Origin: a virus
Reading direction: 5' to 3' (one strand)
IMG/VR virus record: IMGVR_UViG_3300032315_001572
Coordinates: 25,549 to 89,548 of that record
Length of the DNA: 64,000 nucleotides
Shown here: piece by piece, positions 10,688 to 62,392 of the stretch
How positions within the stretch are numbered: position 1 is the stretch's first letter
Layout of the letters: each line of letters begins with the position of its first letter
The notes under the pieces: generated by a model
The model's database searches: none
What the model saw: the letters and a program-made list of their open reading frames with translations, nothing else
Told to the model about the DNA's origin: nothing
Position numbers and translations under genes: made by a program

Positions 10688-10695
10688 TATTACAC
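10688..10695 (-). promoter_or_regulatory. GTGTAAT late-promoter motif
   Basis: On the minus strand GGTGTAATAT, ending about 6 nt before the ATG at 10681; no Shine-Dalgarno. Confidence 0.55.
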
Positions 10696-10704
10696 CCGTT
10701 TAAT

Positions 10705-11001
10705 TTAAAATTCTTTATATTTAATCAAATGATTTCTAACAAAATATAAGTTAATAAAAAACCCACAAAATGCACTAAAAATATTACTTAAAAATGGATA
10801 AGTTAATTGAAAAAATGGATCAATAAAAAAACTAATAACTAAAGATATCCAAAAACTAGAGCATTCATGACAAAGCAAGGGTTTGTGAATATATGGAATT
10901 CTAGCAATAAAATTTCTAAAAGGTCTAGCAATTTCAGTATCGCTCCAAGCATAAGTTACTCCCAAGCAAACAAACAAATATATTAAAAATTGATAAAACA
11001 T
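10705..11001 (-). CDS. small membrane protein with a CxxCxxFW motif
   Basis: A 98-residue protein with three hydrophobic segments (N-terminal FYQFLIYLFVCLGVTYAW; FWISLVISFFI; and the region near NIFSAFCGFFINLYFV) and the motif LLCHECSSFW in the middle. Short phage and bacterial membrane proteins with this Cys-x2-Cys-x2-Phe-Trp arrangement (DUF1360-like) are known, but their function is not. It begins directly after the stop of the preceding gene, so they share a transcript. It could be an inner-membrane protein acting in lysis or superinfection exclusion; neither is shown here. Confidence 0.75.
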   Translation of the reverse strand: MFYQFLIYLFVCLGVTYAWSDTEIARPFRNFIARIPYIHKPLLCHECSSFWISLVISFFIDPFFQLTYPFLSNIFSAFCGFFINLYFVRNHLIKYKEF

Positions 11002-11475
11002 TTAAATAAAATAAACAACTAATTTATCTTCTTTTTCTACAACGGAAAATGATTTAAAATTAATCTTTTCTTCACTTAGTTTTTTAGCAACATTTTTCCA
11101 ATCTTCTTCTGTTTTGCCAATTTCAAATATTCTTCCGCCACTATTTCTAAACATGTTTTGTTGCATCATTTGCATATGGTTCTCCATTTGGTTAGTTGGT
11201 GCTTGAGAATTTTTAATTTCTTCAGCCTTTTCTTGTATTATTTTTTGGATTTCTTCATTATTAATGAGGCTATTAAAATAACTTTCTTCAGCACTAATCT
11301 TAGCTTGAAGATGAGCTTTTACTCTGTTTTTGCAAGAACAGTTTGGATTGTTTCTGGAACTAGTAAGATCCGCTAAAATTTCTGGAAATTTATCTTTTAA
11401 AGAATTAAACAATGTATCATTCTTGATAAAAGTATTAAAAAACACTGGTGAATTAAGTAGTTGTTGAAATGTCAT
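11002..11475 (-). CDS. unknown helical protein
   Basis: A 157-residue, largely helical protein with a CSCKNRVKAH patch near residues 47-56, a charged coiled region (EIQKIIQEKAEEIKN), a Met/Gln-rich stretch and a C-terminal alpha/beta tail (FSVVEKEDKLVVYFI). No family recognised. No GTGTAAT lies upstream; a TATAATATC sits just before the ATG and might serve as a -10. It abuts the membrane-protein gene and follows the tube-like paralogue by 42 nt. Confidence 0.75.
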   Translation of the reverse strand: MTFQQLLNSPVFFNTFIKNDTLFNSLKDKFPEILADLTSSRNNPNCSCKNRVKAHLQAKISAEESYFNSLINNEEIQKIIQEKAEEIKNSQAPTNQMENHMQMMQQNMFRNSGGRIFEIGKTEEDWKNVAKKLSEEKINFKSFSVVEKEDKLVVYFI

Positions 11476-11517
11476 GTTTATGATATTATAGTATATATAT
11501 TATAGAAAATCTAAAAA

Positions 11518-12324
11518 TTATGGCTGAAGGTATAGCACTTTTGTTTGATTATATTGAGCTTCATTATCACTACTAAATGTAGAATTTAAATTAGTAAGTA
11601 TATTGTTGGGTAAATCAAATGTTGCTAAATTTATATTAGATTGATATTTTTTTATTGATATGTATTGTCCAACATCAGGACTAATGTATCCTGAATTTGG
11701 CAAATTACGGAGATTCGATACAAACGTAGTACTACTTGCGCTACTATTAAATGAAATTTCTTGTTTTATTGGATATTGAATATATACAGTATCTGGCGAG
11801 TAATTTCCAATAGTGTAATTAACGATACGATTTACATCAACATTAATTCCAAAAGATTGAACTCGGTTAGAGTTGAAAAGCGTTAGATTTGAATCTATAA
11901 AACACGGATCTCCGATATTAAATGTATTTAAATTTATTGGTTTTGAAGTAAAAGATATTTCAGAAGCTGGCCAATTAAAAATAATTCCTCTTATATCAAC
12001 TGTTGGATATTCTCCTAGTTTATAATTCAAAGAATAGTTGGTTAAATATCCATTTGTAAATGTTACATATTTATCACCATATTCAATTCTACCAGAAAAT
12101 GAATTAACACCAGTATAAGGCAAAAATCTATCACTATCACTTAATATATAAGATAAATCAAATTGAGCGACTGGAAAACCATCTTTTGTATAGTTAATTG
12201 AATCATTTATAGATATTTGAGGAGCTATTTTAAGATCAACTCCAACATTAAAACTTCTTACTCCAGATACTAAAGAATCATTTAGATAAAAGTTCTGATT
12301 TTCTATAGTATATACATTAAACAT
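11518..12324 (-). CDS. tail-tube-like paralogue (minor)
   Basis: A 268-residue beta-rich protein sharing a scaffold with the proteins at 28602-29750 and 59203-60411: an N-terminal strand set (VRSFNVGVD), FDLSYILSDSDRFL (compare LDFSYINANLSNENIL and FNFSYIPDGVTNENRL), and NGYLTNYSLNYKLGEYPT (compare NAFLTSYSTEGSVGNFPT and NSYLSEYSFNVSLGNLPI). It is shorter and lacks the C-terminal GSNK-x-x-TL-x-F segment of the other two. It is transcribed divergently from the tail-tip operon. It may be a specialised tube-like ring near the tail tip, but this is inference. Confidence 0.7.
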   Translation of the reverse strand: MFNVYTIENQNFYLNDSLVSGVRSFNVGVDLKIAPQISINDSINYTKDGFPVAQFDLSYILSDSDRFLPYTGVNSFSGRIEYGDKYVTFTNGYLTNYSLNYKLGEYPTVDIRGIIFNWPASEISFTSKPINLNTFNIGDPCFIDSNLTLFNSNRVQSFGINVDVNRIVNYTIGNYSPDTVYIQYPIKQEISFNSSASSTTFVSNLRNLPNSGYISPDVGQYISIKKYQSNINLATFDLPNNILTNLNSTFSSDNEAQYNQTKVLYLQP

Positions 12325-12332
12325 TAATTATA

Positions 12333-12340
12333 ATTACACT
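12333..12340 (-). promoter_or_regulatory. GTGTAAT late-promoter motif, minus arm of a divergent pair
   Basis: Minus-strand AGTGTAAT ends 8 nt before ATG 12324; no Shine-Dalgarno. It lies opposite the plus-strand copy at 12348-12356. Confidence 0.6.
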
Positions 12341-12347
12341 ACTTTTT

Positions 12348-12356
12348 AGTGTAAAA
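12348..12356 (+). promoter_or_regulatory. late-promoter motif, plus arm of a divergent pair
   Basis: AGTGTAAAA, the only plus-strand copy I found, heads the tail-tip operon. It is 19 nt before ATG 12376, and that leader contains purine-rich AAGAGG and AAAAGG sequences usable as Shine-Dalgarno sites. Confidence 0.55.
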
Positions 12357-12375
12357 TATAAGAGGTAAAAGGTAT

Positions 12376-12924
12376 ATGGCTAGTATTTTTGATACAGTTC
12401 CATCTTGGAATTCTGGTAGTACTTATAACAAGTACGATATAGTGTTAGGTAGTGATGGAAAATACTATTATTCAATAATAGATTCTAATGCAGGGGCTGG
12501 GAATAATCCAGTAACTCCTGGGAATCTTCAGCTTGATTGGGATGGATACATTCTTTTAAATAGCGTATTATATCCTAATTTTTGGTGGAAACCTTCTTAT
12601 GATGCAAAAATTAATACTAAACCAAGAATTAAAGTAAATAAATTTGGAAATGGATACGAACAAAGAATTAATGATGGAATAAATAATAATTTAATAGAAT
12701 TTTCATTAGTTCTTGACAATAGAAGTGAAAAAGAAACTGTTTCAATTCTGCATTTTTTACAACAAAGAAATGGCCAAGAATCTTTTGTATATAATTTGCC
12801 TACGATTTATTCAAAATCATCAACAAATTTAATTACTAGATTTATTGCTCCAGAATGGGGTTCTTCTTATGTGTCATATAATAACTATAAAATAGATTTA
12901 AATCTTATAGAAGTACCAGTTTAA
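12376..12924 (+). CDS. tail-tip protein, lambda gpM-like, with N-terminal carbohydrate-binding-like module
   Basis: A 182-residue protein. Residues about 80-182 match the minor tail protein M family: RIKVNKFGNGYEQRINDGIN, then an Arg/Glu-rich helix, then a C-terminal strand pair, as in lambda gpM. The first 55 residues are an added domain of the type W-N-x-G-x-T-Y-x-x-x-D-I-V with YYYS, resembling ChtBD3-type carbohydrate-binding modules; a second such segment occurs in the next gene. gpM connects the tape measure and tube to the tip in lambda. It is the first gene of the M-L-K-I-J operon, behind the plus-strand late motif. Confidence 0.8.
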   Translation: MASIFDTVPSWNSGSTYNKYDIVLGSDGKYYYSIIDSNAGAGNNPVTPGNLQLDWDGYILLNSVLYPNFWWKPSYDAKINTKPRIKVNKFGNGYEQRINDGINNNLIEFSLVLDNRSEKETVSILHFLQQRNGQESFVYNLPTIYSKSSTNLITRFIAPEWGSSYVSYNNYKIDLNLIEVPV

Positions 12925-12928
12925 TATT

Positions 12929-14314
12929 ATGCCAACCTCATCTGAAGTTTATAATTTAATAGTAAGTGGCAATCAATCTTTAAATACCGAACTTAGCTCT
13001 TTAACACCATCTACACAGGTTATTTTATATGAAATTGATTTATCAGAAATAGCACCTACAACTATTAATTTTAATTATAATGGAGATCAACCGATTAATA
13101 ATGGAATATTTAGAATATATAATGATTATAATTTATTCAAAATCGTAAATAACCCATATGGAGCATTAAAATGGCAAAATAATTATTATTATCCTTTTCC
13201 AATTTTTTCAGAAGGTTTTGAATATTCTTCTGCAGGAACACTACCAACTCCAAAAGTTTCAATATCTAATCTTTCTCCAGATTATTCTTCTAACTCTTTC
13301 TACAGATACATTAGAATGCAAATGCAAAGTTTAGGAGATATTGTTGGTGCAAAATTTAGTAGAATTAAAACATTTTTAAAATATCTCGATAAAGCAAATT
13401 TTTCTAATAATATTAATCCTTTTAATAAAAATGAAGGATTATATGAAATAGAGCTACCAAGAGATATTTATTATGTAGATAGAAAAACGGTTGAGAATAG
13501 GAATATAGTTGAATATCAATTAAATACAATTTTAGATATAGAAAATTTAACATTACCAGGAAGAACAATTTACGCTAAAAAATGTCCATTTCAATATAGA
13601 GGAGAAGGATGCTGTTACGAATATAATAGCAGATTAACTTATTTGCACAGCGGAATTTATGCAGGTATAGATAATTCTCCTATAACAGTAAGAGGTCTTT
13701 ACACTGCCCCACCAGTAGCTACAGAAAATGATCAGTTATTTTTTGGAAGCGTTTTTAATCCTACTGGAGGTAGGGCACATCTTTCAGCAATATTTAGAAT
13801 AACTGGAGCAAATTATGGAACTAATGGCCCTCTTGGAAATTCTGGACAATGGTCTCAAAATCAAACATATATTTCTGGAGATTTTATTTATTTACAAAAT
13901 AGAGGATTAAAATTTTATTATGTTTGTTTAAATAATCATTTATCTGATCCATTTAATGCTCCACCAAATACTAATTACTGGTCAGCTGATTCATGTTCAA
14001 AAAATATAAACGCTTGTAGATTAAGATGGTTAAAAAATCCAGCTTTTAGACCAGTTATTTGGCCAGCAGATAGAAATGGAGAGAGCTGGACTCAAACAAA
14101 AGATAGAATAGTAAGTTTGGTTGGAAGTGGCGAAAGAATAAGTTTATGGGCAACTGGTTTAAATGGTGTTCCAATTAATTTCCCAAGAAGACCTGGAGCA
14201 GAAGATCCAACTGGAATTAGAGCGCATGGAATTCCAAAAGATATGAATCAAAATTATTTAAATGGATTTCTTCCATTCGGAGGATTTCCAGGAACAAATC
14301 AACCCCAAGCATAA
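12929..14314 (+). CDS. tail-tip protein, lambda gpL-like, with Fe-S-type cysteines
   Basis: A 461-residue protein matching lambda gpL: an N-terminal beta domain (FEYSSAGTLPTPKVSISN, 97-114) and the Cys signature YAKKCPFQYRGEGCC (Cys219, 228, 229) paired with DSCSKNINACRLRW (Cys356, 363). In lambda gpL four conserved cysteines bind an iron-sulfur cluster, and this pattern matches. The two Cys pairs are separated by about 125 residues, far more than in lambda, by an insert holding a W-S-x-N-Q-T-Y-x-x-G-D module like the one in gpM. The protein is about twice lambda's 232 residues. It lies 4 nt after gpM and 2 nt before gpK. Confidence 0.85.
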   Translation: MPTSSEVYNLIVSGNQSLNTELSSLTPSTQVILYEIDLSEIAPTTINFNYNGDQPINNGIFRIYNDYNLFKIVNNPYGALKWQNNYYYPFPIFSEGFEYSSAGTLPTPKVSISNLSPDYSSNSFYRYIRMQMQSLGDIVGAKFSRIKTFLKYLDKANFSNNINPFNKNEGLYEIELPRDIYYVDRKTVENRNIVEYQLNTILDIENLTLPGRTIYAKKCPFQYRGEGCCYEYNSRLTYLHSGIYAGIDNSPITVRGLYTAPPVATENDQLFFGSVFNPTGGRAHLSAIFRITGANYGTNGPLGNSGQWSQNQTYISGDFIYLQNRGLKFYYVCLNNHLSDPFNAPPNTNYWSADSCSKNINACRLRWLKNPAFRPVIWPADRNGESWTQTKDRIVSLVGSGERISLWATGLNGVPINFPRRPGAEDPTGIRAHGIPKDMNQNYLNGFLPFGGFPGTNQPQA

Positions 14315-14316
14315 AA

Positions 14317-15042
14317 ATGATTGATAAAAAAAATAAAAATTTTATTATAAAAGAATGTTCAAAAAATCCATCAGAAGAAATTTGTGGATTTATAGTACTT
14401 AAAAATGATAATTTTATATGCATGCCATGTGAAAATATTGCAAAAAATAAAAAAGAAAATTTTATGATATCTTCTTTGGATTATATTAAAATAAAAAAAT
14501 ATTCAGATCAAATTCTTTATATTTATCATAGCCATATAAATGATAATGAAAATTTTTCTGAACAAGATATTTCTTGCTCTGAAAATTTATGTCTACCAAT
14601 TATAATGTATAATTTAAATAAAAAAATATTTAAAATTCATGAACCAATAAGTATAAAAAAAGAATATATTGGAAGATTCTATCAACATGGAAAATATGAT
14701 TGTTTTAGATTAATTGAAGAATTTTATAAAAAAGAAAAGTCTATAGAATTCAAGTATGATAATAATTTTTATTCAAAATCATTAGAACAAATGGATATAA
14801 AAACAGAATTATATAAATTTTATAAGAATAATAATTTCCAACTTATAGAAAATAAAAGCGATCTTAAATTGCACGATATACTTTTAATAGATGCTTTTGG
14901 AGATCATAAACCAAAACATTTCGCATTGTATATGGGACAAGATAAAATTTTACATCAACCTATGTTTGGTTTCTCAAGAATCGAAAATTATTGTAATTTT
15001 TATAAAAGGCATACAGATTCAATCTTTAGGTTAAAAATATGA
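14317..15042 (+). CDS. tail-tip assembly protein, lambda gpK-like (JAB/MPN plus NlpC/P60)
   Basis: A 241-residue two-domain protein. The N-terminal JAB/Mov34 metalloprotease domain has Glu21 in EEICGFIV and the zinc motif H-S-H-x7-S-x2-D (His71, His73, Ser81, Asp84). The C-terminal NlpC/P60 domain has Cys129 in YDCFRLIEEF and His201 in KHFALYMG. Both catalytic sets look intact. In lambda-like phages gpK is needed for tail-tip assembly and could cut the cell wall during entry. It begins 2 nt after gpL and overlaps gpI by 4 nt. Confidence 0.9.
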   Translation: MIDKKNKNFIIKECSKNPSEEICGFIVLKNDNFICMPCENIAKNKKENFMISSLDYIKIKKYSDQILYIYHSHINDNENFSEQDISCSENLCLPIIMYNLNKKIFKIHEPISIKKEYIGRFYQHGKYDCFRLIEEFYKKEKSIEFKYDNNFYSKSLEQMDIKTELYKFYKNNNFQLIENKSDLKLHDILLIDAFGDHKPKHFALYMGQDKILHQPMFGFSRIENYCNFYKRHTDSIFRLKI

Positions 15043-15803
15043 TAACAGTAAATTTGCATGGTAAATTGGGTGAAGACTTGGGAGAAACATGGGAATTAGA
15101 TGTTTCTTCTGTGGCAGAAGCTTTGCACGCTATAGATATAAATACTAAAAAATTAAGACATTGGTTATTATATAATAAAGATCAATATGAATATGAGATT
15201 TTAGCAGATAATAATAGTTTTTTTGATGAATCTCCTGAGTTTAAAGATATAAATGAATTAAAAAATTCTGAATTTTGTTTAGATATTAAAGATAAAATAA
15301 AAACAATAGATATTGTTCCGTCTGTTATAGGCTCTGGAGCAGTTGGGAAAATATTCGTAGGAGCAGCTCTAGTTGTTGCAGCGGTAGCGATAGCCGTATT
15401 TACGCCATTTATTTTACCAGCCGTAGCTATTGGATTTGCTGGTTTAGCTTTAATTGCAGCAGGAACGAGTGAATTATTATCAAAACCCCCACCATCTGTT
15501 CCTTTTACCGCTCAACAAACTAATCCAATAGATGGACAGGGTGAAGCTGGAGGACCAACATCTTATCTTTTTAATGGTCCAGTAAACACAGTAGGAGAAG
15601 GTGGTCCAGTCCCAATAGGATATGGAGAGCTAATCGTTGGTGGTAATAATGTATTTAGTAGTTATGAAATTGTTTATAGAGCATATGCTGGTAATTTTGA
15701 TACAAATACTTTACAAATTAATAATGCAGGAAATGCTCAGTATTTATTTAACTCTAGGTGTCAGTTAATAAGTCAAGAAGCTTTACAAGCTTTAGCTTTT
15801 TAA
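15039..15803 (+). CDS. tail-tip protein, lambda gpI-like
   Basis: A 254-residue protein with the family layout: an N-terminal beta-grasp-like domain (VNLHGKLGEDLGETWELDV), a central Ala/Gly-rich hydrophobic hairpin (about 100-145, GKIFVGAALVVAAVAIAVF and following), then a Gly/Pro-rich segment (GGPVPIGYGELIVGG) typical of gpI. The hydrophobic region may enter the host membrane or pack inside the tip. It lies between gpK (4-nt overlap) and gpJ (4-nt gap), exactly as in lambda. Confidence 0.85.
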   Translation: MITVNLHGKLGEDLGETWELDVSSVAEALHAIDINTKKLRHWLLYNKDQYEYEILADNNSFFDESPEFKDINELKNSEFCLDIKDKIKTIDIVPSVIGSGAVGKIFVGAALVVAAVAIAVFTPFILPAVAIGFAGLALIAAGTSELLSKPPPSVPFTAQQTNPIDGQGEAGGPTSYLFNGPVNTVGEGGPVPIGYGELIVGGNNVFSSYEIVYRAYAGNFDTNTLQINNAGNAQYLFNSRCQLISQEALQALAF

Positions 15804-15807
15804 GTTT

Positions 15808-18800
15808 ATGGGAAATCCAAATAAATACGCAGATGGTTTACAATATCTTGCATTTCCTGGAAACGTTGGTCAAGGAGTATGTGGATATAATTTTCCAGAA
15901 AGCACAGCTCAAGATGATGTAGGTGGTGGTAATTTATGTTTAAGCTTTAGTGGTACAGCGTTACCTGTTCCTAGTTCTAATCCAGGAGCACCAAATACTT
16001 ACGGTAGAGGTCCAAGTGGATTTCTCGCAAGGCATACTGTATTAGCCGTAATGACTGGAGCCAATATTCAAAAATTTAGTACTAGAGATGGAAGCCCTGC
16101 AGATGGCGCACTCTTTAGGGCGAATACTTTTGGCGCGCCAGATTTACAAACTATTTTTGGTGTGAGTACGGTCGCCTCAGTAGAAGCGGGAACTGATCCA
16201 CAAACTAACGGAGTACGTTTAACTCAAAGATTCAAAGATCAAAGAGCATATACTTCTATTGGTCAAATTAATGTATTAGATTTAGTTTGCGAGGGTCCGA
16301 TTGAAGGGTTTGTTAGTGGATTATATATTCCAAATTTAAGTGGAAAATCAATTGGAGATATAGGATATACTAGCGTTACATTTCAACCATATGAACAAAC
16401 TTACAGTAATCCAGAAACTAGATCAATATATTGGAATGATACTCCAATTACAGATCTTGCAGGATTTTATAATTTTCAATATGTAAATTATAAATACACA
16501 TATGGCGAAAAAACAAATGATCATACAATTTATAATCCATATTTAAATCTTTATGAAGAAAGAAGAGATTACTTTGGCAAACAAGTAGATCAAAACAAAA
16601 TACCATTACAAACCTCAATAACAAAAAGTATAAATGAAACTTTATATGGATTTTATCAATTAACTGGAACTCAAATATTAACACCAAAAACTTATTATGT
16701 ATATAATACCGATGTTTCATCAATTAAAATAAATATAAAAATAAACAGTTTATATGAGCAAATACTAACTGGAGCAAATGCTGGAGACGTTGAACCACAA
16801 GTTGGAGTTTTTACATTTGCAATATATAGAATTCTTTCAGATAATAGTCTTATATTGTTAGATACATCTAAATATAGACCTTATTTAAGAGAAGGATATT
16901 CAGTCGATACTATTCAACTCCAAGGAAAAATAGCTAATAGCCCAGTAATAGTTCCATATGAAATAACGCTAAGACCTTATGCAGAAAATACTCCTTGGTT
17001 TGAAATCTTTCCAAATCAAATTGGTTGGGCTATAGACCTTGTTAAAAAAACAAGAGAAAGCACTGGCGGTGGACTTTTTAACTCTACATCAATAGATAGT
17101 ATAACTGAAGTTTATTCAGATCGTTTTGTTTATCCAGATACTGCTTTAGTTTATTCTAAGTTTGATGCAAGATATTTTAATGATATTCCAACGAGAACAT
17201 ATAAATTAAGATTATTGAAAGTTAAGATACCAGTAAATTATGATCCAGTTGCTAGAAATTATACTGGTCCGTGGAATGGAAAATTTAAAATTGCATGGAC
17301 TGATAACCCAGCTTGGTGTTTTTATGATTTAATTATAAACAATAGATTTGGATTAGGAAAATTTATTGATTCTAGTTTAACAGATAAATGGACTTTATAT
17401 GAAATTGGTCAATATTGCGATGAACTTGTATCCGATGGTCTTGGAGGTTTGGAGCCTAGATTTACTTGTAATTTATATATTAATACAAAAGAAGAAGCCT
17501 ATAAAGTTTTAAACGATATGGCAAGCATTTTTAGAGCAATCGTATATTATTCAGCTGGACAAATAACTGTATCTCAAGATTCATTAAAAGAGCCTATATA
17601 TCTTTTTAATAATAGTAGCGTTATAGAAGGAACATTCAATTATTCTGATGCTTCTAAAAAGTCAAGGAAAACAGTAGCATCTGTAAGATTTAATGATAAA
17701 AATGATAATTTTAAACCAGCAATTGAATACGTAGAAGACAAAAATTCAATATTAAAATATGGAATACGAGAAACAGAAATTGTTGCATTTGGTTGCACAA
17801 GCAGTAGTCAAGCAAAAAGAATTGGCAAATGGCTTTTAACTACTCAAAACACAGAAACAGAATTAGTTGATTTTCAAGTTGGTCTAGAAGGTAATTATTT
17901 AAGACCAGGGGATGTTATCTCAATTTATGATCAATATAGAAAAAATCAATCTTACGCAGGAAGAACTTTAGAGCTAACTAGTGGATACGCAGTATTAGAT
18001 ACTCCATATAATTTTACTAATACATACGCAATTACTGGTGCGAATATGAATAATTCATTTGTATTTAATATATTAACTCCAACTTATAATTTAAATCCTG
18101 GAACACAACTTGGAGACTTGTATATTACTGGTTTTAATATTACATCTTCTGGAGTTACAGGATTAAATAGTTCATTCTTTAGAAGAAGTCAGTTGCAATC
18201 TATTAAAATAAATAGTCCACAAAATTATTTAACTAGTGGATCTGGAATATACTCTAATAATATAAGACTTAATTTTCCAAGCGGTTTAATAGTTAGCGGT
18301 TATAGTTTACCGCAAAACACAGTTTGGAATATAGATATAAATACTTCTGGATATGCAACAGCAGGAATTAATACTAGGTCTGAGATGAACAATGAAGGCA
18401 GAGCCTTGTATCCAGGATATTACCTAGAATCATTTCTTAATAAACCTAAAAAATATAGAGTATTAACCATTACAGAAAAAGAACCAGAAATATTTAATGT
18501 TAATGCTCTTGAATATAATGATCAAAAATATGCAGATATTGACAATGTAAATGATTTAGTTAACGTACCACTTAGACCTGCTGCACCAGTTGCTCCTACT
18601 TTATTTTTAAGTGGAATATTTAGAGATCCTATTACTAATTCTTATCTAAGTAATCCAGCTGGAACACATTATACTACTAATCAAGGCGGAATTAACAGCG
18701 TAATGTATAATATACAACCACCAACAAATAATGCAAGTAATAATCTATATTATGTATATATAAAACCATTCTCTCCTTTTACAAGTGCAACTGTAACTCC

Positions 18801-19041
18801 AGAATCATTTTTATTTGATGCAATATCTCCTTCAACACTTAGAACTGGTTTAAGTCGATTCGATTGGTCTATAGGCACTATACCAGCATTTATAACACCA
18901 ACTGGTGCTGGCACATATTATTTTAGAATATTCGCTGAAAATAATATCGGAGAAAGAACTCCAGCGCTCAATGGATCATACAATCTAACAAATCAAGCTT
19001 CTGTTTTCAGCGTTCAAGCTTCTGGTACAAATGTTTATTAA
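15808..19041 (+). CDS. central tail-tip attachment protein, lambda gpJ-like
   Basis: A 1077-residue protein of the gpJ family. The hallmark INVLDLVCEGPIEGFVSGLY lies near residues 155-175 after an unusually long N-terminal extension rich in Gly and Pro. The middle carries AYKVLNDMASIFRAIVYYSAG and GQITVSQDS, typical of the gpJ hub domains, and the C-terminal third is beta-rich with fibronectin-like character (YYVYIKPF, YYFRIFAENNIGERTPALNG). In lambda the extreme C-terminus binds the receptor, so the last few hundred residues are the likely host-range region. No stop or frameshift interrupts the gene. It ends 3 nt before the next gene. Confidence 0.92.
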   Translation: MGNPNKYADGLQYLAFPGNVGQGVCGYNFPESTAQDDVGGGNLCLSFSGTALPVPSSNPGAPNTYGRGPSGFLARHTVLAVMTGANIQKFSTRDGSPADGALFRANTFGAPDLQTIFGVSTVASVEAGTDPQTNGVRLTQRFKDQRAYTSIGQINVLDLVCEGPIEGFVSGLYIPNLSGKSIGDIGYTSVTFQPYEQTYSNPETRSIYWNDTPITDLAGFYNFQYVNYKYTYGEKTNDHTIYNPYLNLYEERRDYFGKQVDQNKIPLQTSITKSINETLYGFYQLTGTQILTPKTYYVYNTDVSSIKINIKINSLYEQILTGANAGDVEPQVGVFTFAIYRILSDNSLILLDTSKYRPYLREGYSVDTIQLQGKIANSPVIVPYEITLRPYAENTPWFEIFPNQIGWAIDLVKKTRESTGGGLFNSTSIDSITEVYSDRFVYPDTALVYSKFDARYFNDIPTRTYKLRLLKVKIPVNYDPVARNYTGPWNGKFKIAWTDNPAWCFYDLIINNRFGLGKFIDSSLTDKWTLYEIGQYCDELVSDGLGGLEPRFTCNLYINTKEEAYKVLNDMASIFRAIVYYSAGQITVSQDSLKEPIYLFNNSSVIEGTFNYSDASKKSRKTVASVRFNDKNDNFKPAIEYVEDKNSILKYGIRETEIVAFGCTSSSQAKRIGKWLLTTQNTETELVDFQVGLEGNYLRPGDVISIYDQYRKNQSYAGRTLELTSGYAVLDTPYNFTNTYAITGANMNNSFVFNILTPTYNLNPGTQLGDLYITGFNITSSGVTGLNSSFFRRSQLQSIKINSPQNYLTSGSGIYSNNIRLNFPSGLIVSGYSLPQNTVWNIDINTSGYATAGINTRSEMNNEGRALYPGYYLESFLNKPKKYRVLTITEKEPEIFNVNALEYNDQKYADIDNVNDLVNVPLRPAAPVAPTLFLSGIFRDPITNSYLSNPAGTHYTTNQGGINSVMYNIQPPTNNASNNLYYVYIKPFSPFTSATVTPESFLFDAISPSTLRTGLSRFDWSIGTIPAFITPTGAGTYYFRIFAENNIGERTPALNGSYNLTNQASVFSVQASGTNVY

Positions 19042-19044
19042 TTT

Positions 19045-26176: not shown

Positions 26177-26194
26177 TTCCTTTACTATAAGGAA
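26177..26194 (-). promoter_or_regulatory. leader hairpin over the tape-measure Shine-Dalgarno
   Basis: TTCCTT and AAGGAA form a perfect 6-bp stem with a 6-nt loop. The AAGGAA arm is the best Shine-Dalgarno for ATG 26170, 6 nt away, so folding would hide it. Confidence 0.4.
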
Positions 26195-26200
26195 TTACAC
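26194..26200 (-). promoter_or_regulatory. GTGTAAT late-promoter motif
   Basis: Minus-strand CGTGTAATTCC, 23 nt before the tape-measure ATG; this longer leader contains a Shine-Dalgarno (AAAGGAA). Confidence 0.5.
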
Positions 26201-44671: not shown

Positions 44672-44678
44672 ATTACAC
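44672..44678 (-). promoter_or_regulatory. GTGTAAT late-promoter motif
   Basis: Minus-strand CTAGTGTAATATTC upstream of the fibre block, with an unusually long leader of 99 nt. Confidence 0.5.
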
Positions 44679-45527: not shown

Positions 45528-45534
45528 ATTACAC
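45528..45534 (-). promoter_or_regulatory. GTGTAAT late-promoter motif
   Basis: Minus-strand TGTGTAATAATATG, 23 nt before ATG 45504; the leader carries AAAGGAAA. Confidence 0.55.
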
Positions 45535-46085: not shown

Positions 46086-46460
46086 TTAAAAAGATGTTAC
46101 TTCTGGGCTTACAACAAATTTTCCTCTAATTAGTTTTATAGAATTACCAGTTGGTATTCCATAAGGAAATCTTTCTATATCATAAACAAAAACTCCAGCT
46201 GGAATAGATGCCATTGTATAAGAATCAATATTTATATTTACAATTCCAGATTGATAAGATGATCCGTTATTTCCAGATACAATAAATGGATTTAAATTTA
46301 ATAAAATTTGTTGATCTCCTGTATATCCATAAGCATATCTTACAACCCCTCTAACATCATATCCACTTAAATTTATTGGAACATTATATGTATCTCTTAC
46401 TCTTAAAGAAAGTTGTATATTGTCGCCTTGTATAGTTTCTATATTATATGAAGTAGCCAT
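46086..46460 (-). CDS. BppU-like N-terminal-domain protein
   Basis: A 124-residue beta-sandwich protein (MATSYNIETIQGDNIQLSLRVRD..., PINLSGYDVRGVVRYAYGY, IPAGVFVYDIERFPYG) resembling the N-terminal domain of baseplate upper proteins, which mounts receptor-binding fibres on the virion. ATG 46460 is used because the late motif ends 7 nt upstream of it; starts farther upstream would overlap the motif. Confidence 0.6.
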   Translation of the reverse strand: MATSYNIETIQGDNIQLSLRVRDTYNVPINLSGYDVRGVVRYAYGYTGDQQILLNLNPFIVSGNNGSSYQSGIVNINIDSYTMASIPAGVFVYDIERFPYGIPTGNSIKLIRGKFVVSPEVTSF

Positions 46461-46467
46461 ATAATAT

Positions 46468-46474
46468 ATTACAC
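46468..46474 (-). promoter_or_regulatory. GTGTAAT late-promoter motif
   Basis: Minus-strand CGTGTAATATATT, 7 nt before ATG 46460, without Shine-Dalgarno; it fixes the start of this gene. Confidence 0.55.
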
Positions 46475-48942: not shown

Positions 48943-48949
48943 ATTACAC
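48943..48949 (-). promoter_or_regulatory. GTGTAAT late-promoter motif
   Basis: Minus-strand AAGTGTAATATTT, 9 nt before ATG 48933, no Shine-Dalgarno. Confidence 0.55.
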
Positions 48950-53547: not shown

Positions 53548-53554
53548 ATTACAC
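53548..53554 (-). promoter_or_regulatory. GTGTAAT late-promoter motif
   Basis: Minus-strand AAGTGTAATAATC, 7 nt before ATG 53540, abutting the stop of the upstream gene at 53556. Confidence 0.55.
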
Positions 53555-53555: not shown

Positions 53556-55895
53556 TTATACTATAACCATTTGCTTACCATCGTTAAATGATCCGAGTTC
53601 ATTTTTAAATTCCCCAGTAACAAAAGCTCCATCTTCTAAGTATTGAAAGTATTTAAAAGATCCTACGCTTGGATAATAAAAAATAAATGGTTTTATTTCA
53701 TTTTTATATCTTTTGAATGAAAGATGTGGAATACGAGATAAGCTGTTTTGATCTCCTAAATTATATTTTTGTATTGAGCCGCCTTTGTTTGTTATATAAA
53801 ATCCGCTACGATTACTAAATCCTCTATATGATATGCCATAATAATTTTCTCCAGAATTGTATTTAAAATTATTAAAAAAATATGAATCATTTAAGGCAGC
53901 ACTATCTATAATACTATTTGTCCAATTTGTTCCATTGTATTCTGATATATTTAAATATCCTGTTTGTTCATTTTGGCTACGTGTTGGATATGCTAAAATA
54001 GGATTTCCATCGCTTTTAAAATCTAAATAAATTTCACTAGATTCTCTATAACTTTGAGATATTCTAGTTTGCGTCCAACCAGTTGTAATTGGATCCATTT
54101 CGTAATAAAATACTCCAGTCTGTGCACCTTGGACAAATGATCCATCGGCTGCTGTAATTAAACAATATTTATTAGTTATTGGATTAACTTTAAAATCTGT
54201 CTGAATGCCATAATTTCCCGTATATGGCGTATTATAATATGTATAACCCGATCCAATTGAATCTGCTTTTATTAATGCTCCTCCATAACGTGTTGGACTA
54301 GTTGCGAAACCTAAAACGCTCATAATTACTTGATTTGTATTTTTATCAAAATCAAATGGCCCACCACCGATAATAGTCATTTTCGTATTTGTGCCACTAA
54401 AATTAATATCTCCAGATGGAAAAGCTAATCCTGTCCAAGATGTTCTTTGAAGATTTGCTGGATAATAAAAATTTACGTTAGGTGGAGCTATCGTTGTAAA
54501 ATTTGGTTGATTAGTAACAGGATTGATTTTTATATCATAAGAAAATATAGTTTGTGCGGTTGGTATTGGTTTTGGTGATAAATTTTTAGAGCTAGCAGTT
54601 ACTTGAGGAGATTTATATTCATAAAAAGTATAAATTCCGACTGTATAAACTTTTAAATCATCTTTCAAAAAATCTAATCCAAATTCATAATTGCTTGATT
54701 GATCTATACTTTTTAAAATATTTTCTCCAGAAAAAGTTGTTTCATTAATAGTCGATGGCGAATTACTTATATTTTTTATATATTTAATAATATTATCTTT
54801 TTTATAAAAAACAATTGGTTGAAGATCAGAGTCTACTTTTAAATAACTATTTTTAGTTTTATCAAAATAACTTTCTCCACTTAGCAAATCAATAAAATTT
54901 TGGCCAAAAGCAGATATATTTGGATCCCAATTTGTTTCAGTAATAAACTGTTTATTAAATACTATTTTATTTTTGTCTTCTATGTAACTGATATACCAAT
55001 AATTATCATTATTTAAAGATTTTTCTAATTGAGGTTTTTGATATATTATATCATTTTGACGGGCTACAAGTTTTCCAGAAAGCCAAATATTGTTGCTATT
55101 TTTAATATTTATATAAGTTCCACTTGTATTTCCTGCCATTAAAACTACTGGTTGATTTATTTTTTCATCAATTTTAGAAACGGCATATCTTTTATTATCG
55201 CCAGAATTTAAAGTGTTTACGTTGGTTATTGTCCATAAAATTCCATTATATTTAGCAGATTTTAAAACTGAAGAATCACCTTGTATAAAATGAACGAAAG
55301 GATAATTATCACTAGGATCAAAAAGCAAAGTAGCATAATTTATATTATTTGCTGCTGAAGCTCCGTTAGATATTATAGTCTTTACAAAAGATGATCCATC
55401 GTATTTATAATAATTTAAATCATAATTAGTTGAATCATAAGATATACATGCTGGTAAATTATCATTGGGATCGTATTGTAAATCAATTGAATCGTTGTTT
55501 GCTGCTGGGCCAATATTTCCTACCGATATATTGCTCCAAGTTTCATTACTTAATTTTGAATAATGTAAATAATAATTTGGTGCAACATAATTGTAATATG
55601 CAAAAGATGGATTCTGATCTGATGGGTCATATCTTACAATCATATTAGTACTCGAGTAAGATGGTGAATTAATTATATACTCTTTTAGATTTCCATCTTT
55701 TTTAACCTGTGCATAGAAATTTGATTCGCCACTTTTTGTTACTAATGTATATTCTGATAAAATTAAATTTTCTGTTTCAGCGGATGATGATAGACTATAT
55801 GAATTAGTATAAATTATATTATTATTATAAACTCCTGGAATTCCAATGGTATATAATCTACCATTTCCTAAATTTGTTGTCTGAAGTATACCCAT
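53556..55895 (-). CDS. large beta-rich (propeller-like) virion protein
   Basis: A 779-residue Asn/Ser/Tyr-rich protein with recurring segments such as RYDPSDQNPSFAYYNY, QYDPNDNLPACISYDS and LFDPSDNYPFVHFIQGD. Such D-P-x-D-x-x-P-x-x-x-Y units repeated at roughly 45-60 residues suggest a beta-propeller. Later regions are beta-rich without obvious repeats. It could be a receptor-binding or tail-tip accessory protein. A late motif lies 7 nt before its ATG and overlaps the stop of the endolysin gene. Confidence 0.65.
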   Translation of the reverse strand: MGILQTTNLGNGRLYTIGIPGVYNNNIIYTNSYSLSSSAETENLILSEYTLVTKSGESNFYAQVKKDGNLKEYIINSPSYSSTNMIVRYDPSDQNPSFAYYNYVAPNYYLHYSKLSNETWSNISVGNIGPAANNDSIDLQYDPNDNLPACISYDSTNYDLNYYKYDGSSFVKTIISNGASAANNINYATLLFDPSDNYPFVHFIQGDSSVLKSAKYNGILWTITNVNTLNSGDNKRYAVSKIDEKINQPVVLMAGNTSGTYINIKNSNNIWLSGKLVARQNDIIYQKPQLEKSLNNDNYWYISYIEDKNKIVFNKQFITETNWDPNISAFGQNFIDLLSGESYFDKTKNSYLKVDSDLQPIVFYKKDNIIKYIKNISNSPSTINETTFSGENILKSIDQSSNYEFGLDFLKDDLKVYTVGIYTFYEYKSPQVTASSKNLSPKPIPTAQTIFSYDIKINPVTNQPNFTTIAPPNVNFYYPANLQRTSWTGLAFPSGDINFSGTNTKMTIIGGGPFDFDKNTNQVIMSVLGFATSPTRYGGALIKADSIGSGYTYYNTPYTGNYGIQTDFKVNPITNKYCLITAADGSFVQGAQTGVFYYEMDPITTGWTQTRISQSYRESSEIYLDFKSDGNPILAYPTRSQNEQTGYLNISEYNGTNWTNSIIDSAALNDSYFFNNFKYNSGENYYGISYRGFSNRSGFYITNKGGSIQKYNLGDQNSLSRIPHLSFKRYKNEIKPFIFYYPSVGSFKYFQYLEDGAFVTGEFKNELGSFNDGKQMVIV

Positions 55896-55902: not shown

Positions 55903-55909
55903 ATTACAC
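55903..55909 (-). promoter_or_regulatory. GTGTAAT late-promoter motif
   Basis: Minus-strand GTGTGTAATAC, 7 nt before ATG 55895, overlapping the endolysin stop codon. Confidence 0.5.
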
Positions 55910-56810: not shown

Positions 56811-57029
56811 TTATTGCCATTGAGCTAGAGCTGTTCTAACCCATAGATCGGTAGCTTTACAAAAATAAAGATATTCGCCATCTGCAGTAATTTGTCCTGC
56901 TGTTCCTGGAGATGTTGAAGTTGCTGGAACATAAGATGTATCCATTACGAATCCTCCACTATATCCAGCGTCTGTAATAAAATCTGCTAAAGATGCTATA
57001 AGGTCTGCTGGAAATTCTTCTGTTTTCAT
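56811..57029 (-). CDS. small fibre-tip protein with a GTAGQ-type C-terminus
   Basis: A 72-residue protein with a helical N-terminal half (TEEFPADLIASLADFITDAG) and a C-terminal SPGTAGQITADGEYLYF with WVRTALAQW, the same domain as in two other proteins of this window. A late motif lies 10 nt before its ATG. Confidence 0.7.
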   Translation of the reverse strand: MKTEEFPADLIASLADFITDAGYSGGFVMDTSYVPATSTSPGTAGQITADGEYLYFCKATDLWVRTALAQWQ

Positions 57030-57039: not shown

Positions 57040-57046
57040 ATTACAC
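57040..57046 (-). promoter_or_regulatory. GTGTAAT late-promoter motif
   Basis: Minus-strand TGTGTAATCTAATATAG, 10 nt before ATG 57029. Confidence 0.5.
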
Positions 57047-58439: not shown

Positions 58440-58889
58440 TTACTCTACGTAACTTGCTGTGGCATCTTTACATCCAGATGCAATAGCGTTAAGTACCTTT
58501 ACTGCGAGAGCGCCATTTCCATCTAATCTTGCAAATTGTTGAGCATAAAGATCTTTTATTACAGTAACATAATTTGCCCAATGAGTTTTTTCTGCTGGAA
58601 GGTAATCGTTAAGAGCTTTTTGAAGTTGCTCTGGAGTTGGAGTAGTTCCAGCTGTTAATCCTTCTACAATAGCTGCAACATGATTAATCATTTTAGCTTT
58701 TTCAATTCTATCGTTACCAGAAACTGCTTGATCAAGAACAACAGTGCAAGCTAATATAACTGCTGGTTTGACATAAGGAAGAGTATTTTCAACACTTGTT
58801 GCAACGTCAACTTTTCCAGTACTAGTTGTAGCACAACCAACAAAAAATACGCTCAAAAGAGCAACTGCAATTAATTGTAATTTATTCAT
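58440..58889 (-). CDS. lipoprotein of unknown function in the lysis cassette
   Basis: A 149-residue protein with a lipoprotein signal, MNKLQLIAVALLSVFFVGC, cleaved before Cys, then ATTSTGKVDVATSVENTLP and a helical domain (LDGNGALAVKVLNAIASGCKD). Its start overlaps the holin-like gene by 4 nt, and GGAGAAAA precedes it. Probable roles are lysis or superinfection control, but no family is recognised. Confidence 0.7.
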   Translation of the reverse strand: MNKLQLIAVALLSVFFVGCATTSTGKVDVATSVENTLPYVKPAVILACTVVLDQAVSGNDRIEKAKMINHVAAIVEGLTAGTTPTPEQLQKALNDYLPAEKTHWANYVTVIKDLYAQQFARLDGNGALAVKVLNAIASGCKDATASYVE

Positions 58890-59170
58890 ATATTTTCTCC
58901 ATGTGTTCTATCTTTTGCTTCACTTGTTTGAGCTACTGTTCCACCAGTAACTGCTGCATCTTTTACTGTTAATGCAAAAATAATACCAGATACAACTGCG
59001 ACTAATTTTGCAATTCCAGTGATATAAACTTCTGCTATATCTGGAAGAAATGCTACTAAAGTTGGATCTGAATGAATTGCTATTGCCGTAGTAACTGCTA
59101 CAACTGTTGCAATTCCAGATGAGCTAGATCTCCAATTAGGGCCAAATATTTTAGATAGCATAGTTTTCAT
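58886..59170 (-). CDS. holin-like membrane protein
   Basis: A 94-residue protein with two likely membrane segments (SSGIATVVAVTTAIAIHS and ITGIAKLVAVVSGIIFALTV) and a hydrophilic C-terminus (TSEAKDRTHGENI). Size and position, first in the lysis cassette and followed by lipoproteins, suit a holin. A late motif lies 5 nt before the ATG with no Shine-Dalgarno. Confidence 0.7.
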   Translation of the reverse strand: MKTMLSKIFGPNWRSSSSGIATVVAVTTAIAIHSDPTLVAFLPDIAEVYITGIAKLVAVVSGIIFALTVKDAAVTGGTVAQTSEAKDRTHGENI

Positions 59171-59175: not shown

Positions 59176-59182
59176 ATTACAC
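59176..59182 (-). promoter_or_regulatory. GTGTAAT late-promoter motif
   Basis: Minus-strand TAGTGTAATATC, 5 nt before ATG 59170; no Shine-Dalgarno. It heads the lysis cassette. Confidence 0.55.
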
Positions 59183-59202: not shown

Positions 59203-60411
59203 TTAAAATATCAATACTTTCTTTTGATTATTCAAAACACCATATAATATATTCCCGCTAATAAACAATCCTCTTCTTCCAAAATCTGGATCAAGATCAA
59301 AATCAAAACTTAAAGTTGCAGTTTTATTGCTTCCGATAGAAGAGTCATAATTAATATTTGTAAATTTACAGCCACTAAAAGTTAATTTTGTTTGATCTAC
59401 TCCTATTTTTCTATTATTAAAATTAACAACAATATTGTAATCATCATCTCGATTTAATGTATCAAAAAATGAACCAGAAAGATCTTCTTTAACAATAAAA
59501 CTTGTATTTAATTTTCCATTAATTGGAAATTCTATTTTTCTTAATAATGGGAATTTGTAATTAATTGATCTATAAGGTTTTCTATTAAAAGATAAAGTAT
59601 AATCTAAACTTTGAATTATATCATTATAAAATAAAACTCCAGTAGTATTATTTGTGTAAAAAGTAACACTAGCGTCTCCTGGCAAAAGAATATTTTGTCC
59701 ACTTATTCCAGTTTGATTATAATTTAAAGCTTTTGGAATAATAATTGTATCATTATTTACTTGATTGATTCCAGATCTTAAATCTAACAAAGTATACTTT
59801 ACGCCAGATCCACTATTGTAAAAAACAATATTATCCGCAACATAATTTTGATTTACTATTGGCAAATTTCCAAGTGAAACATTAAAAGAGTATTCACTAA
59901 GATAAGAGTTTTGAAAATGTAATAATCCATAATTTTGACTATTTGAATTTATTATTTGAGTAGTATTAGTTGGATTAATTAATGAGTTTGTTAGTGTCGC
60001 ATTTTCAGAAAATAAATCATCATTATTTTCATTTATAACAAGATAAAAATCTCTATCATTTAATAAGCTACTGTTAGTACATAGTCCAGAAAACATTGGT
60101 GCATTAAATCCAGAAAAATGATTAACATTGAAATTTAATCTATTTTCATTTGTAACACCATCTGGAATATATGAAAAATTAAAAGTTACTTCTGGTGGTC
60201 CAGAAATTCCACGAAATATATTTTGTTTTTGACCAAAGCCTTGAGCATTTAATCTTGATTGTTGAATTGAATAATTAAAGCTTTGTATTTTCTCTAGTCT
60301 TTTAAGAATAATATTATTAGCTAAATAATAATCAGAACCCGCATTCTGCTCTCCACTATATGGAGCAACATATAAGCCTTCTACATTGTAGATTATTCTA
60401 TTTCTGGCCAT
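59203..60411 (-). CDS. tail-tube paralogue, second large copy
   Basis: A 402-residue protein clearly related to the major tail tube at 28602-29750: the same start MARNRIIY, the same LLPGDASVTFY and IQSLDYTLSFNRKPYRSIN-type segment, and the same ending YDSSIGSNKTATLSF with GLFISGNI. It lies beside the portal gene rather than the tube cluster. It may be a minor tube protein, a tail-completion ring or a second tube type. A late motif and Shine-Dalgarno (AAGGATTAAGG) precede it. Confidence 0.75.
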   Translation of the reverse strand: MARNRIIYNVEGLYVAPYSGEQNAGSDYYLANNIILKRLEKIQSFNYSIQQSRLNAQGFGQKQNIFRGISGPPEVTFNFSYIPDGVTNENRLNFNVNHFSGFNAPMFSGLCTNSSLLNDRDFYLVINENNDDLFSENATLTNSLINPTNTTQIINSNSQNYGLLHFQNSYLSEYSFNVSLGNLPIVNQNYVADNIVFYNSGSGVKYTLLDLRSGINQVNNDTIIIPKALNYNQTGISGQNILLPGDASVTFYTNNTTGVLFYNDIIQSLDYTLSFNRKPYRSINYKFPLLRKIEFPINGKLNTSFIVKEDLSGSFFDTLNRDDDYNIVVNFNNRKIGVDQTKLTFSGCKFTNINYDSSIGSNKTATLSFDFDLDPDFGRRGLFISGNILYGVLNNQKKVLIF

Positions 60412-60431
60412 AACCTTAATCCTTGTATAGG

Positions 60432-60438
60432 ATTACAC
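60432..60438 (-). promoter_or_regulatory. GTGTAAT late-promoter motif
   Basis: Minus-strand AAGTGTAATCC, 20 nt before ATG 60411; the leader carries AAGGATTAAGG. Confidence 0.5.
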
Positions 60439-60441
60439 TTT

Positions 60442-62373
60442 TTAAGCTTTACTATGATACAACAATGAAGCTATGTAATTTGAGACTTGATGTTCAACTG
60501 CAATCTCTTGAATATTATTAATTTGCTCTTGATTTTGATCAAAAGGTTTTTCTATATATTCTTCAATTTTAGATGTCCAATTCTCTGGAACTTCATTAGC
60601 TATAATAATTTCAGATATATTTTCTGCGCTTTCTTTTTGTTGATTGCTTAATTTTTTAACATTAAACTTTTTTCTAACAGCAGATTTAACTTCTTCTTCT
60701 AGATTTTGAGATGCTAAAATATTATCTTTGATTTTAAGGACTGAGAATGAAGCTTTTGTGCCAATTGGTTTTACATTTTTTGTAGATTGAGGTACTCCAG
60801 TAGAACCAGATGGTCTTCCAGCTTGACCAGCTGCACTTCCACCAATAAGTGGTTGATATAAACCTTCGTCTCTTAATTCTTTGAATTTTCTTTGAGATTG
60901 TACGGACTCTTCTTGAGTTGGCAATCTTCCAGTATCGATTGCAGCCAATCCTTCTTCTGCAGTTAGTACTCCTAACTCAACTAGTCTATTGTAAATTCTA
61001 GAGTATTGAACATCATCTTTAATATCAATATCTTGGAATGTTGGAGTTGGAAAATTCTTAAAACCAATATCTTTGCTCATTCTTCTAATTTCTGGAATTA
61101 AAAATTCATTGATAAATACTTCTCTGGCCTGTTTTAATCTTTGAACAAATACTTGAACTTTAATGCTTGTGTTTGCGAATTTTTCATTGCCAATAAGAAT
61201 ATTATTTAATCCAATTTGAATATCACGATCTACTACTTCATACTTTTGTGGTCCAATTAGATTGCCAATATCTGGAATTACGAATTGAGCTTTTGTTGTA
61301 TAATCAGCAATAAGAACTCTTCCGATGCTTTGGTTTTCAAATAATTGTTGCATCGCTTGAAGATTTTTTTGATTTACTCCGCCTTTATCAGGAGTATCTC
61401 CCATTGTAACTAATAGAACTGCTTGTTGCATTGTTCTTGTTACTGCCATGTCCATTTTCTTCATTTCAAGTTTCCAATTGATATCATCAAGAACTGGAAA
61501 ACCCATTGGAATAGAAAGTGGCTCGTAATCTTGCTTTTTATAAAATACTGCTGCAAGCTTGCTCTTGTCTAGTGGAACAAGAATATAGGAATTATTTTTA
61601 TTTTTAATTTTCTCTTTAACATCTTGAGGAAGATTTTTATAAACTTCAATATCTTCATCTGTTTTTGGATCTCTTAGTCTTTCTAATTCGTAATCACTCA
61701 ATAATTTGTAATAAACATTAAAAGCATAATTAACTGTTCCGCCAACGTAGATGTCAGCTGGGTTAACAATTGTATATCTTGCTGGAAGTTTAACTGAACC
61801 ATCTTGAGCAATTGATTTTAATTTAGAACCAAAAGTTTGTGTTATTTTTAAAAGTTGTTCGCTAGTTAAAGATGTGTCAAATCTATAAGTGAATACGTTT
61901 CCGCTTCTGTAGTACTCTCTAAAGAATTGATCTTGGAAACTTGCTAGATTGATTTTCTTAAAATATGCTTCAAAAAATTCTCTTGATTTTTGACTTCCAC
62001 CAGTTAGATAAATTTGACTATCTGAAAACTCGGTCATCAAATCAATTGTATTTCTGAAAATACCTACATTGTAATAAGCTTTTTGGCATAGAATAATAGC
62101 ATCTCTAACATCTAAAGTAGAAAGATTTCTTACATAATTAGAATATCTAAAAGGAATAATACCTGTATCAATATTAGTAAACCTATTAGTTCTTTCTATA
62201 TCTGCTGCAGCATTTCTACGCATACCAGTTGAAGCCCTAATCTCTGCTATTTTTGCTCTTTTCTTGTCTGATGCATCAGTTCCGTATACCATAAGTGGTG
62301 TTACTTGATCTTGTGGGAGTGGTAATTCTACTGAGGCTTTGGTTTCTTCAATTTTTTTAGTTTTTTTGCTCAT
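60442..62373 (-). CDS. portal protein
   Basis: A 643-residue protein with the layout of a phage portal: disordered N-terminus with Lys-rich start, an alpha/beta wing (YVRNLSTLDVRDAIILCQKA, FFREYYRSGNVFTYRFDTS), a long stem helix region (LKQAREVFINEFLIPEIRR), and a disordered, Gly-rich C-terminal part (GGSAAGQAGRPSGSTG) ending in a helical region. It follows the terminase gene directly (late motif between) and precedes a tube paralogue. Portals form a dodecamer at the packaging vertex. The assignment rests on fold-like layout and position. Confidence 0.8.
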   Translation of the reverse strand: MSKKTKKIEETKASVELPLPQDQVTPLMVYGTDASDKKRAKIAEIRASTGMRRNAAADIERTNRFTNIDTGIIPFRYSNYVRNLSTLDVRDAIILCQKAYYNVGIFRNTIDLMTEFSDSQIYLTGGSQKSREFFEAYFKKINLASFQDQFFREYYRSGNVFTYRFDTSLTSEQLLKITQTFGSKLKSIAQDGSVKLPARYTIVNPADIYVGGTVNYAFNVYYKLLSDYELERLRDPKTDEDIEVYKNLPQDVKEKIKNKNNSYILVPLDKSKLAAVFYKKQDYEPLSIPMGFPVLDDINWKLEMKKMDMAVTRTMQQAVLLVTMGDTPDKGGVNQKNLQAMQQLFENQSIGRVLIADYTTKAQFVIPDIGNLIGPQKYEVVDRDIQIGLNNILIGNEKFANTSIKVQVFVQRLKQAREVFINEFLIPEIRRMSKDIGFKNFPTPTFQDIDIKDDVQYSRIYNRLVELGVLTAEEGLAAIDTGRLPTQEESVQSQRKFKELRDEGLYQPLIGGSAAGQAGRPSGSTGVPQSTKNVKPIGTKASFSVLKIKDNILASQNLEEEVKSAVRKKFNVKKLSNQQKESAENISEIIIANEVPENWTSKIEEYIEKPFDQNQEQINNIQEIAVEHQVSNYIASLLYHSKA

Positions 62374-62385
62374 ATATTGTTAAAT

Positions 62386-62392
62386 ATTACAC
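62386..62392 (-). promoter_or_regulatory. GTGTAAT late-promoter motif
   Basis: Minus-strand AAGTGTAATATTTAAC, 12 nt before ATG 62373, directly after the terminase stop. Confidence 0.55.

Follow-up and report, generated by a model that had tools for sequence, protein, structure and literature searches.

The 64,000-base window analysed here (bases 25,549-89,548, the terminal part of the 89,548-base IMG/VR record IMGVR_UViG_3300032315_001572) raises the question of what a short element, GTGTAAT, does directly upstream of so many of its genes. The left part of the window carries replication genes and glycosyltransferases on the plus strand, and the right part carries structural genes on the minus strand, together with one plus-strand tail-tip operon. 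A previous sequence-only reading had taken the element for a phage-specific late promoter consisting of a -10 box and served by a dedicated sigma factor. According to the data presented below, -10-only late promoters served by a phage sigma factor are the best explanation as a whole, with a probability that we put at about 0.85. Positions are those of the window, unless they are referred to the record.

Occurrence and consensus of the element

In the window, 19 copies of GTGTAAT are on the minus strand and one is on the plus strand. In the whole record, 20 minus-strand copies were counted, compared with a mean of 6.9 (maximum 14) in 200 shuffles, and one plus-strand copy, compared with 6.0 expected. 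It is the top start-associated 7-mer of the record, since 15 of the 21 copies are followed by an annotated start within 45 nucleotides (nt) (binomial 3.5e-22); both the excess over shuffled sequence and the closeness to starts had been expected. Fifteen minus-strand sites of the window run straight into an open reading frame (ORF) of at least 49 residues beginning with ATG, at a distance of 5-37 nt, and another one, at 44672, lies about 99 nt before its gene; the earlier count of at least sixteen minus-strand genes is thereby borne out, as are the distances of 5, 7-10, 12 and 20-24 nt. The remaining minus-strand sites (8771, 29515, and 52345) are intragenic and have no start downstream. The element proposed before the plus-strand tail-tip operon was also found, in the form GTGTAAA. 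The sites are the following:

62386-62392, minus strand: GTGTAAT, 12 nt before the portal-like gene 60442-62373 (minus strand)
60432-60438, minus strand: GTGTAAT, 20 nt before gene 59203-60411; GTGTAA in 44/44 unique orthologous upstream regions
59176-59182, minus strand: GTGTAAT, 5 nt before the first ATG of gene 58886-59170 and 14 nt before a second in-frame ATG; 35/35 orthologues
57040-57046, minus strand: GTGTAAT, 10 nt before gene 56811-57029; 9/9 orthologues
55903-55909, minus strand: GTGTAAT, 7 nt before gene 53556-55895
53548-53554, minus strand: GTGTAAT, 7 nt before a 49-residue ORF starting at 53540
48943-48949, minus strand: GTGTAAT, 9 nt before gene 46498-48933; 2/2 orthologues
46468-46474, minus strand: GTGTAAT, 7 nt before gene 46086-46460; 5/5 orthologues
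45528-45534, minus strand: GTGTAAT, 23 nt before gene 44683-45504; 4/4 orthologues
44672-44678, minus strand: GTGTAAT, about 99 nt before gene 42671-44572; conserved in relatives G002 and G004
32235-32241, minus strand: GTGTAAT, 7 nt before gene 31715-32227; 3/3 orthologues
29775-29781, minus strand: GTGTAAT, 24 nt before gene 28602-29750; 47/47 orthologues
28535-28541, minus strand: GTGTAAT, 37 nt before gene 28273-28497; 2/3 orthologues within 45 nt
26194-26200, minus strand: GTGTAAT, 23 nt before the tape-measure gene 20462-26170; 3/3 orthologues
12333-12339, minus strand: GTGTAAT, 8 nt before gene 11518-12324, divergent partner of the 12349 element; 3/3 orthologues
12349-12355, plus strand: GTGTAAA, 20 nt before gene 12376-12924; 3/3 orthologues
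10689-10695, minus strand: GTGTAAT, 7 nt before gene 9494-10681

The leader of gene 42671-44572 (44573-44672) contains a conserved small inverted repeat (TTCGCT...AAGCGA) and a GGAA-type Shine-Dalgarno sequence, and is possibly a regulated 5' untranslated region. At 28535-28580, a terminator-like hairpin (CCCTCACG-TTCT-CGTGGGGG, followed by a run of T) directly abuts GTGTAAT, and the same junction is found in relative G003.

When the record and 80 relatives were considered together, 73% of the unique GTGTAAT copies lay no more than 40 nt before an ORF beginning with ATG, versus a mean of 9.4% for letter-permuted 7-mers. Changing a single base lowered the start association to 0-11%, with the exception of position 7, which is also frequently A. 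The element as first worded stands in substance, and its core is corrected to GTGTAA, with T or A at position 7. Motif discovery carried out without a prior hypothesis returned AGTGTAA, GTGTAAT, and GTGTATA as the top words in all clades. As controls, phage T4 (1/6) and pelagiphage HTVC008M (2/26) lacked the association of GTGTAAW (W, A or T) with starts, and the same script recovered the T4 sequence TATAAATA at 14-28 nt from ATG. A literature search for GTGTAAT as a phage promoter retrieved nothing relevant.

The element had also been described as absent before the replication genes at 1-9487; the early region has exceptions, both in the part of the record outside the window. To the left of the window, GTGTAAT lies 7 nt upstream of the ATG of a lone minus-strand gene (record 21021-21794), and a conserved GTGTAAA precedes a plus-strand gene at record 20744. 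The former element adjoins a divergent TTGACT/TATCAT early promoter, so that a late and an early promoter stand back to back. Moreover, GTGTATA, a frequent variant in the distant clade, stands 7 nt upstream of the ATG of a minus-strand gene of 427 residues at record 408-1691.

Conservation among the relatives

Among orthologous genes, the element is all-or-none: it was found in 47/47, 44/44, 39/39, 35/35, and 9/9 unique upstream regions of five element-bearing genes, and in none of the orthologues of the neighbouring operon-internal genes, while the spacer between element and ATG drifts from one orthologue to another. The exceptions are the gene starting at 28497 (2/3), one gene without the element in its single relative, and a GTGTAAC within coding sequence before 52742. 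GTGTAA precedes the portal gene in all 80 near relatives and in 74 out of 76 members of a second clade, whose portal is 54% identical; the other two have the element about 90 nt upstream.

Promoter traits and transcript starts

Of the 106 dissimilar elements compared, 60 end 7, 8, or 9 nt before the ATG, where the distance distribution has its peak, and only five are 0-6 nt away from it. An A is found at position +8 from the element in 15 of the 17 elements of the record; in the near clade, it also occurs in 31 of the 46 elements whose ATG lies further downstream (p=1.4e-4), that is, where it is not part of the ATG, and it therefore looks like the start nucleotide. No information was detected in the 45 nt before the elements of this record, in agreement with the reported lack of a -35 box, and the relatives showed no conserved upstream box. 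Furthermore, in this clade TATAAT occupies the slot before the operon that carries a zinc-ribbon gene and a sigma factor gene (see below), 7-8 nt ahead of the ATG; most members of the other clades have GTGTAAW in this slot, with the same spacing. This alternation in one slot indicates that the element replaces a canonical -10 box.

These data (the lower limit of 7 nt to the ATG, the fixed position of the A in near-clade elements, and the exchange with TATAAT) agree with the promoter reading, and GTGTAA(T/A) is almost certainly a real element and a promoter. In this phage family, it stands before nearly all late operons. In the short-spacing class, the start codon probably lies at or beside +1, and by this geometry the late mRNAs are likely to be leaderless, as had been proposed from the short spacing.

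A candidate late sigma factor

The sequence-only reading had placed a dedicated sigma factor elsewhere in the genome, and a candidate is indeed encoded in the relatives, at a place that in this genome lies past the end of the record. A model of sigma region 2 identified a protein of 227 residues in 19 of 20 longer relatives; its gene adjoins the terminase genes and, in tblastn searches, lies about 4.58 kb upstream of the portal gene in 61/61 near loci reaching that far, the other near loci ending before that position. The contig L003, 96% identical, spans the right end of the window through to the sigma gene; on this basis, the gene of this species should lie about 2.3 kb beyond the record end, corresponding to approximately 66,270-66,953 in window coordinates.

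All of the 41 diverse members examined match sigma region 2 (PF04542, Sigma70_r2; best 1.3e-6), and in the same library T4 gp55 (0.086) and phiEco32 gp36 (0.0019) match it more weakly. Thirty-six of the 41 also match PHROG 1740, annotated as RNA polymerase sigma factor (best 1.3e-6), over about 140 of the 567 profile positions. Foldseek searches with two AlphaFold models of the protein retrieved mainly sigma factors, and the C-terminal helices match SigD sigma4 structures with a template-modelling (TM) score of 0.71-0.78 of the target, but at E>1. The two domains are joined by a linker with five invariant or nearly invariant cysteines (Cys5; CxxC...C...CxxC). A sequence search of solved structures with the first sigma alignment gave nothing significant, with a chain of ECF sigma region 2 at E 0.64. 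The profile matches identify the protein as a phage factor of the sigma-70 family with an ECF-like region 2; according to the models, it appears to keep a degenerate region-4-like C-terminal domain.

Directly upstream, in a frame touching the sigma gene, lies a gene for a protein of 119-155 residues with an N-terminal zinc ribbon, which accompanies the sigma gene in 160 of the 177 sigma-bearing loci, the remaining loci not having been examined. This protein may be a co-activator or an anti-sigma factor. A search for a multisubunit RNA polymerase in the relatives gave no match, and none of six records searched contained the bacterial sliding clamp (PF02768), a gp45-type clamp not having been sought.

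Weighing the explanations

On the whole, GTGTAA(T/A) is very probably read by the 227-residue phage sigma factor. Several observations weigh against this picture. The sigma gene is outside this record; Pfam recognises region 4 in just 1 of the 41 members (E 0.015); and the structural models are modest, with predicted local distance difference test (pLDDT) values of 70 and 72, a predicted TM score (pTM) of about 0.4, and every Foldseek E-value at or above 0.001. The relative G001 (133.6 kb) has a second, more ordinary sigma gene (102934-103410; 209 residues, regions 2 and 4), and the search for a T7-type RNA polymerase was blank even in the controls, so it says nothing on the absence of such an enzyme. 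As far as transcript starts are concerned, the preference for A at +8 does not reach significance in the distant clade, A being preferred one or two bases later there, and with the 5-nt spacing at 59170, +1 would fall within the ATG, unless there is slippage at initiation or translation begins at the second ATG. Lastly, the relation noticed earlier between spacing class and Shine-Dalgarno strength holds in this genome (p=0.003) and is weak across the family (p=0.09).

If the promoter were read by an alternative sigma factor of the host, or by host sigma70 together with a phage activator, the phage sigma factor would serve other genes. It is indeed by co-occurrence that phage sigma factor and element are linked, one relative has the second sigma gene just mentioned, and the element alternates with TATAAT in the slot of the sigma operon. 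However, the change from TATAAT to GTGTAA alters the -11 base, which is the one sigma70 depends on most; moreover, neither a -35 box nor an activator box leaves a signal upstream, and the element has been retained, always with the sigma gene, in two clades that probably have different hosts. We consider this arrangement unlikely.

The position of the element 5-12 nt before many starts that have no Shine-Dalgarno sequence is also that of a ribosome-binding site, and the element might thus act in the mRNA, as a non-Shine-Dalgarno ribosome-binding or regulator site. Nevertheless, the operon-internal genes lack it in every orthologue, it is also found at 20-24 and about 99 nt upstream, beside a separate Shine-Dalgarno sequence, and it is exchanged with TATAAT; its location right after the hairpin at 28535 and the divergent pair 12333/12349 point in the same direction, making an RNA-level role very improbable. 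Even less probable is another kind of DNA site (for packaging, recombination, or a repressor operator) that happens to fall between operons: strong conservation and strand bias taken by themselves would suit it, but a strict orientation toward the start of the gene and a minimum spacing of 7 nt are properties of promoters, and the element moves to the plus strand with the plus-strand tail-tip operon.

From the element, its enrichment, conservation, and spacing, and the sigma gene at a fixed position, all of them read from sequences, we infer the pairing of the phage sigma factor with the element, the timing, the start sites, and the host enzyme in the following scenario. Promoters of the host sigma70 type would serve the early genes first. 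The sigma operon would then be switched on from the TATAAT promoter in this clade and, in most members of the other clades, from a GTGTAAW promoter, which would create a self-feeding loop. The phage sigma factor, together with the host RNA polymerase core, would activate the structural operons via GTGTAA(T/A). At most elements, initiation would occur at the ATG or one or two nt off, yielding leaderless mRNA, while the 20-24 nt class would give a short leader.

Early promoters and probably leaderless transcripts

Before the early genes of the record and of four relatives, the pattern TTGAC-N16-18-TAnnnT lies exactly 6 nt from the following ATG in 25 out of 41 contexts, versus 0-1 cases for controls with altered spacers; the 25 contexts include mutual orthologues and at least one in coding sequence, and the excess at 6 nt is still plain. 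A sigma70-like 6-nt match at record 27424 was discarded as a promoter, being inside a coding sequence conserved in the relatives. Two early promoters of this type fall within the window:

4981-5009 (record 30529), plus strand: sigma70-type early promoter TTGACA-N17-TAACAT, 8 nt before early gene 5018
8634-8662 (record 34182), plus strand: sigma70-type early promoter TTGACT-N17-TATCAT, 6 nt before early gene 8669

Together with the known geometry of sigma70, the 6-nt distance would place +1 on the ATG, and the early mRNAs appear to be leaderless too. This, in turn, would make leaderlessness a trait of the phage-host pair, and not a peculiarity of the late element. In HTVC008M (a T4-like phage of SAR11; positions 1-50000), seven TATAAATA sites lie no more than 40 nt before an ORF beginning with ATG, five of them exactly 5 nt away, and the late mRNAs of this phage look leaderless, unlike those of T4 (14-28 nt).

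Comparison with known phage systems

The closest promoter analogue is phiEco32, whose middle and late promoters consist of a single element (tAATGTAtA) without a -35 box, with starts 6-8 bp downstream, and are served by gp36, a small ECF-like phage sigma factor that uses the host core RNA polymerase and is reported to lack region 4 (PMC8948821). The promoters of this lineage likewise have one element and no upstream box, their start position being deduced from the A preference, and the GTGTATA variant (AGTGTATA) is one base off the phiEco32 sequence AATGTATA. Unlike phiEco32, this lineage has an apparent sigma4-like C-terminal domain, the Cys5 linker, a zinc-ribbon partner, and probable starts on the ATG. 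No membership of the gp36 family was detected (hhalign E 0.61, no profile similarity).

In Salmonella phage 7-11, gp47 serves late promoters that are bipartite, with an upstream box (GTAAtg-(16)-aCTA) (PMC8948821). No such box was seen in this lineage; the two systems would have in common a complete small phage sigma factor, with regions 2 and 4, for late genes, and gp47 is the sole, weak profile match to the 227-residue family, in region 4 (E 0.0086).

The late promoters of T4 (TATAAATA) are also -10-only and depend on gp55, gp33, and gp45, gp55 lacking sigma4, which gp33 supplies on a separate chain (PMC2988020). The likeness to T4 holds as an analogy (a -10 element alone in the late promoters, and a phage specificity factor containing sigma region 2), but it does not extend to detectable homology with gp55, since the profiles show no similarity (hhalign E 0.43-0.45, probability 0.1) and a region-4-like domain seems to be retained in the sigma factor of this lineage; the spacing before the ATG also differs, peaking at 7-9 nt here and amounting to 14-28 nt in T4. 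A review of the T4 system asks why a fused late sigma factor does not exist, none having been found (PMC2988020). The 227-residue family may be such a one-piece late factor, paired with promoters without a -35 box. The joint picture, in which the start codon would be at +1 in both the early (host sigma70) and the late (own sigma factor) programmes, leaderless translation would be the default, and a one-piece sigma2-sigma4 factor would act with a zinc-ribbon partner on a -10-only promoter, is put forward tentatively, as somewhat less likely than not.

Gene content and lineage

The record, in which no end repeats were found, belongs to a large, uncultivated, water-borne group of siphoviruses, whose relatives are abundant in freshwater and marine metagenomes (at least 560-600 per IMG/VR scan with the portal as a query). 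Among the GenBank phages of the collection searched, none resembled the terminase, portal, or sigma proteins, apart from a Bacillus phage whose portal gave a 22% match. A crAss-like phage, the first guess from G+C content and gene sizes, was ruled out by the lambda-type tail-tip siphovirus genes and the lack of similarity to GenBank phages. A Flavobacteriales host, indicated by the contig bin of one relative (portal 54% identical), is doubtful, and the bin is distrusted, since the early promoters look sigma70-like (TTGACA/TATATT) and Shine-Dalgarno sequences are present.

Gene 12376-12924 is the first of the lambda-type tail-tip operon, the following genes of which match PHROGs of lambda-type minor tail proteins. 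Two further structural and packaging genes were assigned as follows:

20462-26170, minus strand: tape-measure gene, PhageMin_Tail (1.6e-29)
62393-63721, minus strand: terminase large subunit (partial by frame), weak PHROG terminase match

In the replication region, the DNA polymerase III alpha subunit is apparently split (300-4984) into a PHP-domain-like ORF (300-1055), small ORFs, a separate exonuclease ORF, and a polymerase core (2393-4984). To the left of the window, record 1759-19133 harbors an array of about 20 genes. By inspection, many look like glycosyltransferase, methyltransferase, or nucleotide-sugar genes, and the majority have no orthologues among the relatives compared, as in a variable sugar-modification cassette.

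Implications

With the late promoter known, operons can be mapped and start codons corrected in hundreds of genomes that otherwise lack annotation, and the element itself is a sequence tag by which members of the lineage can be recognised. If the rule of a start codon at +1 is true, these phages are a model for the leaderless translation of abundant structural proteins. Moreover, a single-chain sigma factor acting on a promoter without a -35 box would make it possible to test directly why the late factor of T4 is divided into two.

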